From Alphaproteobacteria bacterium (GTDB lineage Bacteria; Pseudomonadota; Alphaproteobacteria; Thalassobaculales; Thalassobaculaceae), in the NCBI GenBank assembly GCA_013203465.1, contig JABMNR010000208.1:1-55800 (forward strand): 55,800 nucleotides of DNA, given 5' to 3'. Both the position numbers and the translations under genes were made by a program. Positions 4,600 to 30,293 of the stretch are shown piece after piece (within the stretch, counting starts at the first letter, position 1; each line of letters starts with the position of its first letter). Below the pieces are notes generated by a model. That model was not told the DNA's origin, searched no databases, and was given only the letters and a program-made list of their open reading frames with translations.

Positions 4600-5573
4600 C
4601 AGGCCGCTCCCGGGATCACCCCGCCCAGTTCGTCCTCGATGAAGGCCCGGATCACCGGCTCCATGCCGGCGTCGCGGGCGAAGCCCATGGCATCGGCGTG
4701 GGTGGTCTCGAACCGGCTCGGCCAGCCATAGACGATCTTCTCGATCGCGGGGTCGCGTTCCCAGCGCACGCGGGCGGCGACCTCCGGGCCGGCGATCGCT
4801 TCCAGTGCCGCCACCATCTCGCCCACCGTGATGGTGAAGCCGGGCAAGGCGACCGCCCGCCACGGTCCCCAGGCCTCGGCCGGCAGATCATGGGCACGCT
4901 TGGTGTTGGCGACGATGGTGCGCGGGCTGGCCAGCCACATGGCGGTCTCGGGGGTGACCGGACAGACGGCACCCTGGCCTTGCAATGGCTCGCGGATGAT
5001 CGAGCTGGCGAAGGTCGACGCCGCCTTGTTCGGCTTGCCGGGACGCACCACCACGGTGGGATAGCGCAGCGCCCGGCCGTCGATGAAGCCCTTGCGGCTG
5101 TAGTCGTTGATCAGCAACTCGCCAATTGCCTTTTGAATGCCGTAGGAGTTCTGCGGGGTCAGTTGCTGGTTGTCGGTCACCACCTCGGGCAGATCGCCGC
5201 CATAGGCGGCGCAGGAACTGGCGAATACGATCTTCGGCGTGGTGCCGTGGCGGCGGGCGATGTCCAGGATGGTGCGGGTGGCGTCCAGGTTGACCGCCAT
5301 GCCGAGGTCGAAATCCGCTTCGGCCCCGGCGCTGACCACGGCGGCGAGATGGAACACCGCGTCGGTGTCCGGCCGGATCGCCTGAGCCAGCAGGTCCTCG
5401 TCGGTAACATCGCCGGTGATCGCGTCGATCCGGGCGTCGTCGAGCAGATCGGCCGGCGGGTCGACCATATCGACCAGGCTGATGTGTTCCACGCCCATGG
5501 CGTTGTCGTCCAACAGGGCACGGGCCAGCTTGCGGCCGATGAACCCGGCCCCGCCGGTGATCGCGATCTTCAT
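4599..5573 (-). CDS. denD: D-erythronate dehydrogenase (epimerase-type)
   Basis: A 324-residue NAD-dependent extended-SDR protein. MKIAITGGAGFIGRKLA is the Rossmann nucleotide-binding loop, ASSCAAYGG the serine region, and NSYGIQKAIGE the catalytic Tyr-x3-Lys. This epimerase-type family is the D-erythronate dehydrogenase DenD of the tetronate pathway, oxidising D-erythronate to 2-oxo-tetronate. The assignment rests on the adjacent otnI (next upstream in the operon, one base apart) and the divergent otnK. Length fits the family. A related role on another four-carbon or sugar acid is possible. Confidence 0.85.
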   Translation of the reverse strand: MKIAITGGAGFIGRKLARALLDDNAMGVEHISLVDMVDPPADLLDDARIDAITGDVTDEDLLAQAIRPDTDAVFHLAAVVSAGAEADFDLGMAVNLDATRTILDIARRHGTTPKIVFASSCAAYGGDLPEVVTDNQQLTPQNSYGIQKAIGELLINDYSRKGFIDGRALRYPTVVVRPGKPNKAASTFASSIIREPLQGQGAVCPVTPETAMWLASPRTIVANTKRAHDLPAEAWGPWRAVALPGFTITVGEMVAALEAIAGPEVAARVRWERDPAIEKIVYGWPSRFETTHADAMGFARDAGMEPVIRAFIEDELGGVIPGAA

Positions 5574-5574
5574 C

Positions 5575-6348
5575 TCAAAGCCCCTTCATCCAAGATAAAC
5601 CCTCCACCGTGCCCGCCTTGAGCCGGTACTCGCAGCCGACCCAGCCGTGGTAGCCGAGCCGGTCCATCAGATCGAACAGATAGGGGTAGTTGATTTCCCC
5701 CACATTCGGCTCGTGCCGTTCCGGTACCCCGGCGATCTGCACGTGGCGGATGATGTCGCGGTGCGCCTCGAAGGTCTTGGCCAGGTCGCCCTCGACGATC
5801 TGGCAGTGGTAGAAGTCGAACTGCAATCCGACATTGTCCGCCCCCACCGCTTCGATGATCGCCCGCGCCTGGCCCTGGCGGTTGAGGAAATAGCCGGGAA
5901 TGTCGCGGGTGTTGATCGGCTCGATGATCAGGGTCTTGCCGGCGGCGGCCGCCTTTGGAGCGGCGCGTTTGAGGTTGGCGATCAAGGTCTCGGTGCAGGC
6001 GTCCCGGTCGACGCCGTCGGGCATGATGCCGCTCATCACGTGCAGCAGCTCGTTGCCGATCACCGAGGCATAGGCCAGCGCCTTGTCGAGGGCGGCGTCG
6101 AATGTCGCCTCGCGCCCGGGAATGGCGGCGAAGCCACGGTCGCCCGCTCCACAATCGCCCGGCGGCAGGTTGAACAGCGCCTGGCTTAGTCCGGCCTTGC
6201 TCAAGGCGGCGGCGATGGCGTCGGCCTCATGGTCGTAGGGGAACAGGAACTCCACCCCCTTGAACCCGGCCAGGGCGGCGGCGTCGAACCGGTCCATGAA
6301 ATCGACCTCTCCGAACATCATCGAGAGGTTGGCGGCGAATTTCGGCAT
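5575..6348 (-). CDS. otnI: 2-oxo-tetronate isomerase, hydroxypyruvate isomerase family
   Basis: A 257-residue TIM-barrel protein of the Hyi/OtnI family. It shows [20 protein letters not shown] at the N-terminus, a GVEFLFPY strand, [15 protein letters not shown] with the metal-binding Glu, and [14 protein letters not shown] with the Asp-His pair. OtnI converts 2-oxo-tetronate to 3-oxo-tetronate before phosphorylation. ATG 6348 is chosen because the family N-terminus begins there, with GGGGAC just upstream; longer frames extend toward otnK without homology. It precedes denD in the operon and is divergent from otnK by 89 bases, so one intergenic region may control both transcription units. Confidence 0.85.
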
Positions 6349-9258: not shown

Positions 9259-9618
9259 CTACTTGATCGCCCCGACCGCGCGCAGCGCCTTGAGGTGCAG
9301 GGCGATTAGTCGTTTGGAATCGTCATCCATGCCGGCAAACTTACCGATCACCTCGGTAGCCGATGCGGCCACGGCCGAGGCCGTCGTATTCACGTTGACG
9401 GCGTTGTCTCCTTCGCCCAAGCGCAGGACGAAGCGAAACTGCTGACCGGTGATGATGTTGCCTTCGCCGGGATTGGGGATGCGCAAGCCCTTGAGGTGCA
9501 GCTCTCGGATATCGAGCTCCTCCTCGCCGACAATCGCCGTGCCGAGTTTCACCGCAGGTTTCGCGGCGGTCTTGGAACTACCCTTCGCAGCGGGTTTTTC
9601 TTTGGTTCTGCCAAACAT
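9259..9618 (-). CDS. Small degenerate PilZ-like protein
   Basis: A 119-residue protein with a Lys/Ala-rich N-terminal tail (residues 1-25) followed by a compact beta-rich domain. ELDIRELHLKGLRIPN, then ITGQQFRFVLRLGEG, then a final helix resemble the strand order of a PilZ domain: a DxSxxG-like turn, a GxxV strand and a C-terminal helix. The arginines of the c-di-GMP-binding RxxxR motif are absent, so this would be a non-binding PilZ or a different fold; the resemblance is by eye only. It lies 87 bases downstream of the cyclase-like gene on the same strand and is probably the last gene of that operon. Confidence 0.5.
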   Translation of the reverse strand: MFGRTKEKPAAKGSSKTAAKPAVKLGTAIVGEEELDIRELHLKGLRIPNPGEGNIITGQQFRFVLRLGEGDNAVNVNTTASAVAASATEVIGKFAGMDDDSKRLIALHLKALRAVGAIK

Positions 9619-9705
9619 TTAGCGTTCACCGGTACGTGTTGTGTGGTCGAATTGACCATCACTATATGACACAAAATCATTAAATCTTCCCGAAGAACGC
9701 GTTCG

Positions 9706-10866
9706 TCAAGCCCGGAAAAGATCCTTTACCTTGGCAAGGTCGCGAACATTGAGGCGGTACGGTGTGGCTTCGGCGTCGAAGTCACCCAACGCCTCGGAGT
9801 CGAGTCCGATCGACAGGGATTCACCGCCCTCGAATGTGACCTGAATGATGAGATTTAAGGCGTTGTGCTGGAAGCCGTGCTTGTCGGTGATGGCGTACTG
9901 GGTCACCGAATAGTTGCCCGCCGACAGGTCGGTTCCGGTGATGTAGGAGCGCACAGCGGTAACGGGCTCGCCACCGAATTCCAGGCCGTCCAGCGTGCCG
10001 AATTCGGATGCGGCGCGAGCGAGAAACAACGGGCCATCCAACAGGGTCTTCGACACCCGATCGACGGGACGCCGAAAATTACCCATTAGAATCTGATGCG
10101 ACTCGCATTTTCCGATCAGCCGCGCGGTGTTGATGGTGACGTCGCCGACGATGTACTCGAAGCCACGCGGCGTCTGACCCTCGACCTGATAGTAGGAATA
10201 GTGGCTGCCGATCCCGAAAACCGCGCGCAGGGTCGGCACGAACCGCGCGTCGCCCTTCATGTGGGCGCGCCTGTTGTCGATCATAATCAGCATGAGCGCG
10301 AGATAGGTCCGCAGGTCGGCTTCGATACCTTGTCTTCGATTCCAGACGTAGAAGCCGTCACCGACGGTGGAGCGCGCCAGTTCAACGTCGAGTCCGAGAC
10401 TCTGCAGCCGCTTGTCGGCGCTGTTGATCGAGTACTCAAGGGAATTGAGCTGGGCCACCTGCTCGATCGGTGAAGCCTTGGAGAAACCCACGATGTCGAA
10501 CAGCATGACCCCGCGATAGGGGGTCTGGGTCACCGAATAGCGCCGGAGCACCCGATCGATGGTCGCCGGGGCGATGGCATTCGGCCCGTTGCCAATCGGC
10601 ACCTGGAGTTCGATGCGTGTTGGGCGTGCCCCGAACCCCTTGCAGAGGTCGAGAAAGGCCTCCTCGTCCAGCAACCGGCTCTTCGAGAAGGTGTGGGAAA
10701 TTTCCTCGCCGATCTCGAACGCCTTATAGGTCGGCACGACACATAGATAGACCGTGGAGCCGACGTGGCTCCACCCCACCACCATGTTCCGGCCAAGCCG
10801 CCAGATGGCATTGACCGCGTGGTAAAGTTCCTTGAGTGCGTCGGAGAGGTTCGCCTCGAAGGTCAT
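9706..10866 (-). CDS. Class III nucleotide-cyclase-domain protein with novel flanks
   Basis: A 386-residue soluble protein. The central region (about 115-270) is a class III cyclase homology domain. GVMLFDIVGFSKASP has the first metal Asp, ARSTVGDGFYVWNR the second in the GDGF turn, and VGDVTINTARLIG has the N-x-x-R transition-state pair. All four residues needed for catalysis are visible, so it may make cAMP or cGMP; specificity residues cannot be fixed by eye. The N-terminal ~115 residues and the C-terminal ~110 match nothing recognised; no transmembrane, PAS or HAMP segment is seen. It starts 23 bases after the pentapeptide-repeat gene, so co-expression is likely. A catalytically silent sensor role is possible. 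Confidence 0.75.
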   Translation of the reverse strand: MTFEANLSDALKELYHAVNAIWRLGRNMVVGWSHVGSTVYLCVVPTYKAFEIGEEISHTFSKSRLLDEEAFLDLCKGFGARPTRIELQVPIGNGPNAIAPATIDRVLRRYSVTQTPYRGVMLFDIVGFSKASPIEQVAQLNSLEYSINSADKRLQSLGLDVELARSTVGDGFYVWNRRQGIEADLRTYLALMLIMIDNRRAHMKGDARFVPTLRAVFGIGSHYSYYQVEGQTPRGFEYIVGDVTINTARLIGKCESHQILMGNFRRPVDRVSKTLLDGPLFLARAASEFGTLDGLEFGGEPVTAVRSYITGTDLSAGNYSVTQYAITDKHGFQHNALNLIIQVTFEGGESLSIGLDSEALGDFDAEATPYRLNVRDLAKVKDLFRA

Positions 10867-10889
10867 GCCGCAAGCTCCATGAGCGGCGC

Positions 10890-12143
10890 CTATCCCTTGG
10901 AATTGGCGATCTTGGCGTCGGTCAGGTCGCAGTCGTCAAGACGGGTCTTGAACAGCATCGCATCGGTCAGGTCAGCCGCATTCAAGGCGGCCCCACGCAT
11001 GTCGGCGCCGCGCAGGTCGGACCGCCGCAGCAACGCGGACCGCAGGTTGGTCGGATAGCTCTTGTCGCCGGATTTAAGCCGGCCAAGCTTGGCGTCGCGC
11101 AGATCGGCGCCGTTGAGCTTGGCACCCTCCAGATTGGAGCCGCGCAGATCGGCCCCCTTGAAGCAGCAGTTACGCAGATCGGCCCCCTTGAGCCGGGCGC
11201 CGACCAAAGTCGCCCGCGTGAAGTCGAGGCCCATGAGGATCGCGCCTTCCGCCGACAGCGCCGGCAGGGCCGCGTCCCTGAAACTGGGACCGCCGCGCAT
11301 GTCGACCCCGTCGAGTACCAGGGGCGTGCCTATGGCGCCGTCCGAGGCGACCCACTGCATGTGCCCGGTGATCGCCTGCTCGACGGGAGGATCCAGCTCA
11401 CGGAAGCTTCGGCCGCGCGATTGGTCGGTCAGCACGGAGGAGAGGTCGCAGCCGTCGAACGAGGTGTTCTCGGTCGAGGCGCTGCCAAACACCGCGTCCG
11501 TCAAGTTGGCGCCGCTGAGATCGGCGTGGTCGAGCTTGGCGCCATCCAGCATCGCGCCGGCAAGCGTGGCCCCACGCAGATTCGCATGCACCAGGATCGC
11601 GCCTTGGAGGTCGGCATCGGTGAAATCGGTATGCGTGGCCACCGCCGAGGTCAGATCGGCTCCCTTCAGGTCGGCGCCGGAAAGATCGGCGTTTTCGATG
11701 GTGGTGGCGCCGAGCTTCATGGTGAGCGAGGTAAGGTTGCCCCCTTTCCCCCGCGTGGTGATCGAGCCGTCCCGGAAATCCGCTTTTTGCAGGTTGGCGT
11801 TGCGCAACACCGCGCCGCGAAGATTGGCGCCCCGCAGATCGGCGCCGATCAGGCGTGCCCCTTCCAGGTTGGCTTCGGCGAGATTGGCGCCGAACAGCAA
11901 GGCGCCGTCCAACACGCAATCGGACAGATCGGCTTCCGACAAGTTGGCCCCCGTGAGATCGGCGTCCTTCAGGTTGCTGCCGGTGATAAGCATTCCCGAA
12001 AGATCGAAGTGGATGAGTTGCGCGCGCACCCCTCCAGGTCGCGCCAGGAGAAAATCCTGATGCGCCCTGACCACTTGGGCCAATTCGATGTGCGACAAGC
12101 GATTCGCACGCTTGGCTGATGGGCGAGCCACCCGCGTCCCCAA
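10890..12143 (-). CDS. Pentapeptide-repeat protein with internal duplication
   Basis: About 417 residues, mostly A(D/N)LxG-type pentapeptides (for example ADLTGANLSEADLSD and GADLRGANLRGAVL), which should fold as two right-handed quadrilateral beta-helices. Each repeat block is preceded by a similar capping segment: AQVVRAHQDFLLARPGGVRA near the N-terminus and EQAITGHMQWVASDGAIGTP at mid-protein, both followed by a D(L/M)xG strand. The protein therefore looks like a two-fold duplication. No signal peptide is seen. The frame is open to a TTG at 12167, but a TATACT -10-like box overlaps that codon. AAAGGGG lies eight bases before TTG 12143, and GTG 12131 is another choice, so the start is uncertain. 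It leads the cyclase-like and PilZ-like genes. Confidence 0.8.
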   Translation of the reverse strand: MGTRVARPSAKRANRLSHIELAQVVRAHQDFLLARPGGVRAQLIHFDLSGMLITGSNLKDADLTGANLSEADLSDCVLDGALLFGANLAEANLEGARLIGADLRGANLRGAVLRNANLQKADFRDGSITTRGKGGNLTSLTMKLGATTIENADLSGADLKGADLTSAVATHTDFTDADLQGAILVHANLRGATLAGAMLDGAKLDHADLSGANLTDAVFGSASTENTSFDGCDLSSVLTDQSRGRSFRELDPPVEQAITGHMQWVASDGAIGTPLVLDGVDMRGGPSFRDAALPALSAEGAILMGLDFTRATLVGARLKGADLRNCCFKGADLRGSNLEGAKLNGADLRDAKLGRLKSGDKSYPTNLRSALLRRSDLRGADMRGAALNAADLTDAMLFKTRLDDCDLTDAKIANSKG

Positions 12144-29618: not shown

Positions 29619-30293
29619 ATGCGGTTAGAGACTAAACGACGCCAATTCCCATCGGGTCATGTCTTGTTTCACGAGGGGTCGTACGGTTTCGAGGCCTATA
29701 TTATCGAATCCGGCCTGGTCGAGGTCACTCGGATGTCGGAGGGCCAAAGCCGAGTCATCGGCACCTACGAAGACAATTCCCTTATCGGGCTTCTGTCGAT
29801 CATCGACGGCCAGCCAAGACAAAACACGGCGAGGACACTGACCCGGACCTCGTGCATCGTTCTGCCCGATCTCTACATCAAGGAGAAAATCGACGGCGCC
29901 GGCGACTTCATATCTACCATCATTTCACTGCTCGTTGGTCGCGCGCGGGCCGGAGAGCGTCGTCATTTCCGTCGTCATTCCATCGAGAAGGCCGTCGCGG
30001 TCAGCCTGCCCGACGGGTCGCTGGCGCAGCACCGCACGGTCGATATCTCTATGGGCGGTATTAAGATCACACCGCCGCTTCCCCCCATGTCGGACGCGAT
30101 GGTTCAGGTGAAAATAGCCGACTTGCCGTTTTTCCCGGCGAGGATCCTCGGCTCGAACGCGTCCGGCAGCCGGTTGCAGTTCGATATGAGCGGTGATGAA
30201 CGAATGATGTTGGCCAACCTGATCTTCAAACATTCAGGCCGGGCTGACGAGGCCGAGGCCGGTATCGTCCACTTTGTGGATATGGAGTTGTAG
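29619..30293 (+). CDS. Cyclic-nucleotide-binding domain fused to a PilZ domain
   Basis: A 224-residue cytoplasmic signalling protein. Residues 1-110 form a Crp-type cNMP-binding barrel (FPSGHVLFHEGSYGFEAYII, then IGLLSIIDGQPRQNTART). Residues 112-215 form a PilZ domain with the c-di-GMP motifs RRHFRRH (114-120, RxxxR) and DISMGG (142-147, DxSxxG). There is no helix-turn-helix, so it is not a transcription factor. The canonical Gly-Glu of the cAMP phosphate cassette reads Gly-Leu here, but the Arg two residues after the DGQP turn is kept. cAMP binding is thus uncertain, while c-di-GMP binding looks intact. It stands alone, without a clear ribosome binding site. Confidence 0.85.
   Translation: MRLETKRRQFPSGHVLFHEGSYGFEAYIIESGLVEVTRMSEGQSRVIGTYEDNSLIGLLSIIDGQPRQNTARTLTRTSCIVLPDLYIKEKIDGAGDFISTIISLLVGRARAGERRHFRRHSIEKAVAVSLPDGSLAQHRTVDISMGGIKITPPLPPMSDAMVQVKIADLPFFPARILGSNASGSRLQFDMSGDERMMLANLIFKHSGRADEAEAGIVHFVDMEL

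Follow-up and report, generated by a model that had tools for sequence, protein, structure and literature searches.

A divergent class III cyclase-like protein family and its recurrent pairing with pentapeptide-repeat proteins in the alphaproteobacteria

A three-gene locus on the minus strand

Three closely spaced genes are found on the minus strand of the window, by which is meant the whole stretch of 55,800 nucleotides of alphaproteobacterial DNA analysed here (Table 1). The genes encode, read along that strand, a pentapeptide-repeat protein (PRP), a cyclase-like protein and a small protein of PilZ fold, with intergenic gaps of 23 bases between the first two and 87 bases between the last two. 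A sequence-only reading of this DNA had described the same open reading frames, strand and spacing, all of which were confirmed, and had assigned the three products to the pentapeptide-repeat, class III cyclase and PilZ-like folds, calls that are borne out by the structure predictions and profile comparisons described below. Neither the cyclase-like nor the small protein has a match in Pfam or NCBIfam at E<=1, none of the three matches a PADLOC model at the same threshold, and a scan of the minus strand of the window for promoters and terminators returned nothing useful.

Table 1. Features of the locus, with the residues assigned to the active site of the cyclase-like protein.
Feature	Position	Strand	Description
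PRP gene	10890..12143	(-)	417 aa, TTG start
Cyclase-like gene	9706..10866	(-)	386 aa, soluble protein
Small PilZ-fold gene	9259..9618	(-)	119 aa
Class III cyclase fold	residues 109-345 of the cyclase-like protein		AF2 model and structure matches
Asp124 codon, first metal-binding Asp	10495..10497	(-)	Asp in 102/105
Asp170 codon, second metal-binding Asp	10357..10359	(-)	Asp in 105/105
Ile245 codon, canonical transition-state Asn position	10132..10134	(-)	Ile in 103/105
Arg249 codon, transition-state Arg	10120..10122	(-)	Arg in 103/105

The pentapeptide-repeat protein

The PRP is recognised by PF00805 (E 2.6e-65) over ten stretches of tandem pentapeptide repeats and scores above the NCBIfam cut-off for Alr5209. 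Its two halves align with one another at a score of 178, compared with a maximum of 161 in 300 shuffles of the pentapeptide blocks, and each half begins with a cap segment of the form H-x-x-[FW]-[LV]; the earlier description of a duplicated pentapeptide-repeat protein is upheld by the family match and the half-to-half alignment alike. The window's own genome carries at least 13 PRP genes (13 clear cases). Separately, PRPs of a group that is sister to the partner PRPs are divergent from a PAS-PAS-GGDEF-EAL gene (L152:2975-4270 and L152:4429-6522, G000:C231), with a YfiR/HmsC-like gene nearby; this arrangement occurs in several genera of the window's family as well as in genome G131 of another family, and is absent in genomes G022 and G013.

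Fold and ancestry of the cyclase-like protein

Relatives of the cyclase-like protein were collected by a scan of genome contigs, which gave 128 loci, 80 of them kept, and an alignment of 53 rows (A1, the window protein and 52 other members) was used for AlphaFold modelling. The resulting AF2 model has a mean pLDDT of 90.2 and a pTM of 0.88. Foldseek places class III cyclases as its best matches (E 2.4e-8), and the VIA-align list is likewise dominated by class III cyclases, the best PDB Z-score being the 13.6 obtained for the guanylate cyclase 3et6_A over 177 residues within positions 109-342. The class III cyclase domain recognised in the sequence-only reading therefore agrees with the predicted structure. 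Conservation extends to the N-terminal part of the protein (residues 1-108) and to its C-terminal part.

Sequence comparison contributes less: a search of PDB sequences, whether queried with the window protein by itself or with the A1 profile, returned no cyclase, PF00211 does not include the protein among its matches in the window's own genome and matches none of the 53 members of A1, and an hhalign comparison of the family profile with eight cyclases encoded in the same genome, although motif-colinear, is weak (E 0.0057, probability 6%). The probable homology of the cyclase-like protein to class III cyclases rests on the predicted structure together with this weak, motif-colinear profile alignment.

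A non-canonical active site

In class III cyclases the canonical transition-state motif is N-x-x-x-R, contained within GDxVNxAxR, and a Lys (in enzymes that use ATP) or Glu (in enzymes that use GTP) stands four residues before the second metal-binding Asp. The register of the active site in the new family was set by sequence spacing and by the profile alignment to the eight same-genome cyclases, and residues were counted over 105 aligned sequences with a mean column identity of about 45%. The segment GDVTINTAR of the window protein has a Gly-to-Arg spacing of 8, identical to that of GDxVNxAxR, and the transition-state Asn position is therefore Ile245, so that the N-x-x-R pair reported previously is out of register; position 246, occupied by Asn in the window protein, is variable (N in 12/105). 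Of the residues earlier said to be kept, both metal-binding Asp (D124 and D170) and Arg249 stand, whereas the N-x-x-R pair was a misreading. Nor is an active site that is intact in the canonical sense supported, given that Asn is replaced by Ile and the base-choosing Lys/Glu by Ser: the latter position is Ser166, four residues ahead of Asp170, with Ser in 97/105 and Thr in 5/105 sequences. With Ser in place of Lys/Glu, use of neither ATP nor GTP can be predicted. Two residues before the first metal-binding Asp the family has Leu rather than an aromatic residue. More speculatively, an invariant D328-K329-H330-G331 segment near the C-terminus might take the place of the canonical triphosphate-binding Lys.

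With two non-canonical positions in its active site, that of the Asn and that of the base-choosing Lys/Glu, the enzyme may be inactive. It is accordingly possible, though on the doubtful side, that the family has lost catalysis and retains no more than the binding of a nucleotide or metal, regulating in concert with the PRP, a reading favoured by the near-universal replacement of Asn by Ile and of Lys/Glu by Ser and by the failure of PF00211 to recognise the family. Against it stands the near invariance of both metal-binding Asp residues and the Arg. Moreover, loss of the Asn need not abolish activity: Rv1900c is described as lacking the transition-state Asn and nevertheless active, the Asn has been reported to be dispensable in some cyclases, and the soluble, cyclase-like DUF2652 proteins (in the mycobacterial set) have Ile in the Asn position and keep the Arg, as does the window family (PMC4886424). 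The DUF2652 proteins differ in retaining a Lys-Glu or Glu-Lys base-choosing pair, which the window family does not (PMC4886424), and the DUF2652 Pfam model matches neither the window protein nor the 52 other members of A1 at E<=1.

Recurrent pairing with PRP genes

The cyclase-like family was found in 26 of the 385 alphaproteobacteria sampled and in one gammaproteobacterial branch, and viral contigs yielded no relative. Within an even alphaproteobacterial sample, a PRP gene adjoins the cyclase-family gene in 19 of 27 usable loci, these being 30 loci less three with short flanks that were removed by hand, and not independent of one another, when about 0.3 would be expected; the chance of adjacency per locus is approximately 1.1% with 13 PRP genes, as in the window's own genome, and approximately 2.7% with 35. 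In the fetched set of 105 loci, the cyclase-like gene has a PRP gene no more than 900 bases away in 44. In the window's clade the two genes follow one another in tandem; outside it the arrangement is mostly tail-to-tail, frequently with 20-100 bases between them. Some paired loci have an additional PRP on the opposite flank of the cyclase-like gene, and the flanking genes other than the PRP differ from clade to clade. Co-transcription alone is insufficient to explain the pairing, given its presence in several different chromosomal settings and in either of two orientations.

Phylogenetic analyses bear on the history of this association. Firstly, the pairing label changes 8 times on the cyclase tree, compared with a mean near 34 when labels are shuffled. 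Secondly, in the PRP tree the partners of the window's cyclase clade, in both orientations, form one group apart from their in-genome paralogues, while those of a second cyclase clade fall elsewhere, suggesting perhaps more than one recruitment. Distances among cyclase-like proteins and among partner PRPs are correlated (r 0.97-0.98), a value that vertical descent alone would also give. Many cyclase-like loci, including the entire gammaproteobacterial branch, have no adjacent PRP, so that the PRP is either not always required or located elsewhere. Also counting against the pair, genome G013 has kept the PRP but has no cyclase-like gene. At one locus (L039:4757-5984) the partner PRP is split over two overlapping frames, 4757-5410 and 5397-5984, reflecting an assembly error or a real frameshift. 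Three genomes of one genus encode longer and very divergent members of the cyclase family (L214-L216; frames of 478-481 aa, E about 1e-31), with no PRP adjacent within the available flanks.

Adjacency might also have arisen without function, had an ancestral PRP locus received a cyclase-like gene by chance and the neighbourhood then been inherited. Related duplicated PRP genes in other alphaproteobacteria (L231-L236, L241, L254) do adjoin other genes, which we take, from N-terminal sequence read by eye, to be mutL-like and pgi-like, the cyclase-like gene of Ferrovibrio sits beside a PRP locus of this type, and PRP genes are numerous. That the pair is retained amid varied flanking genes and in either orientation, together with a chance expectation of only about 1% per locus, nonetheless makes this explanation improbable. 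The pairing across many alphaproteobacteria suggests an undescribed two-protein signalling unit. A search of the open-access literature found no PRP-cyclase pairing in alphaproteobacteria, which is weak evidence of absence, and the word cyclase does not appear in a review of pentapeptide-repeat proteins (PMC8145042).

The small PilZ-fold gene as a probably independent neighbour

The best AF2 model of the small protein has a pLDDT of 67.8, the other four of five being poor (34-44). PilZ domains are the best Foldseek matches to this model (E 3.7e-4), and VIA-align superposes it on the PilZ domain 4xrn_C with a Z-score of 13.7 over 93 residues. In addition, hhalign aligns the small protein over nearly its full length with six PF07238 proteins of the same genome (P 2.6e-4), the profile score being 28.1, compared with 13.5 or less in column-shuffled controls. 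PilZ receptors of c-di-GMP carry RxxxR and (D/N)xSxxG motifs; both are absent from all 10 orthologues of the small protein, which have ELHLKG or similar at the second site. Predicted structure, profile and motif absence thus agree with the earlier view of a PilZ-like protein devoid of the c-di-GMP arginines.

The same reading had joined the three proteins in a single signalling module, in which the PRP served as scaffold or sensor, the cyclase as enzyme and the PilZ-like protein as adaptor. Two genomes of genus g3 do share with the window the placement of all three genes side by side on a single strand, and the link between PRP and cyclase-like protein recurs well above chance and in both orders, as described above, but the small protein is not supported as a third member. 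Across 36 genomes of the window's family, 3 have both the small and the cyclase-like gene, 7 the small gene only, 18 the cyclase-like gene only and 8 neither (Fisher p 0.06, leaning towards avoidance); of the 10 genomes that carry the small gene, 7 thus lack the cyclase-like gene, and of the 21 that carry the cyclase-like gene, 18 lack the small one. Small-gene orthologues of 50-65% identity are present in genera that have no cyclase-family gene, genus g12 keeps the small gene in the same amidohydrolase/universal-stress-type neighbourhood without the cyclase-like gene, and in genome G013 a PRP of 70% identity adjoins the small gene, the cyclase-like gene again being absent. A three-protein module is, in consequence of these scattered homologues, quite improbable, and the small gene is best read as an independent neighbour and not as part of the pair. 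Alignment of the regions upstream of the small gene suggests that it may be under its own control.

Another PilZ-domain protein is encoded in the window at 29619-30293 (+), at a distance of about 19 kb. It joins a PF00027 cyclic-nucleotide-binding domain (E 1.1e-16) to a PilZ domain (PF07238, E 6.1e-8) in which the motifs RRHFRR and DISMGG are present, and might serve to integrate two nucleotide signals. The distance is measured from the cyclase-like gene.

Comparison with known systems

With class III nucleotidyl cyclases (PF00211; 3et6, Rv1264, CyaB) the window family shares the fold, both metal-binding Asp residues and the transition-state Arg; it departs from them in its Ile for Asn, its Ser for Lys/Glu and its escape from detection by PF00211, as well as in its additional N- and C-terminal parts and its PRP partner. 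The window PRP belongs to the same repeat family as other pentapeptide-repeat proteins (PF00805; Alr5209, HetL, MfpA), from which its pairing with a cyclase-like gene sets it apart. The 119-aa protein has the fold of PilZ proteins (PF07238; 4xrn, Alg44) and differs from these by the lack of RxxxR, the replacement of (D/N)xSxxG by ELHLKG and a similarity below Pfam detection.

In the Pycsar pyrimidine cyclases (PycC), too, a class III fold goes together with changed base-choosing residues, at positions comparable to those changed here (PMC11224242). This likeness raises the prospect of an anti-phage system of the Pycsar type, in which the PRP would be an effector or a regulator. The residues at these positions in the window family differ from those of PycC, however, the residue two before the first metal-binding Asp is the Leu noted above rather than an aromatic one (PMC11224242), PADLOC recognises none of the three proteins, and no gene for a cyclic-nucleotide-activated effector, as in Pycsar, is seen beside the cyclase-like gene. 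Given, in addition, a vertically inherited, chromosomal pattern and the lack of relatives in viral contigs, an anti-phage role of this kind is very unlikely.

A proposed two-protein unit and its implications

The best reading of the cyclase-like family is that of a divergent, Pfam-invisible class III cyclase-like protein that works with a PRP partner. We consider the chances about even that the PRP and the cyclase-like protein are a two-gene functional pair, with the cyclase-like protein most likely a metal-dependent nucleotidyl cyclase or a relative that binds nucleotides, and the PilZ-fold gene separate. Under this proposal, the cyclase-like protein would be a soluble homodimer of the class III type, able to bind a nucleoside triphosphate together with two metal ions, and its product would most likely be a cyclic nucleotide or a related molecule, with a base preference that canonical rules would not reveal. 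The PRP, predicted to be a rigid, duplicated beta-helix, would bind the cyclase-like protein, or else that protein's target, and in this way set the activity or location of the former, while the PilZ-fold gene, presumably an older resident of the neighbourhood, would act separately. More tentatively still, and with the odds leaning well against it, the pair may represent an undescribed alphaproteobacterial second-messenger family, in which an enzyme of class III fold uses a non-canonical substrate and depends for its activity upon a dedicated PRP.

A biochemical function is known for only a few pentapeptide-repeat proteins (PMC8145042); for one large group, a recurrent gene partner provides a hypothesis that can be tested directly. 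Since the cyclase-like family is invisible to both Pfam and NCBIfam, its members are likely to be annotated as hypothetical in many genomes. If the second-messenger proposal is true, PRPs would be general partners of nucleotide-signalling enzymes, as the sister PRP beside a PAS-GGDEF-EAL gene might also illustrate. Any product that the cyclase-like family may have would offer a fresh test of substrate choice by class III enzymes.
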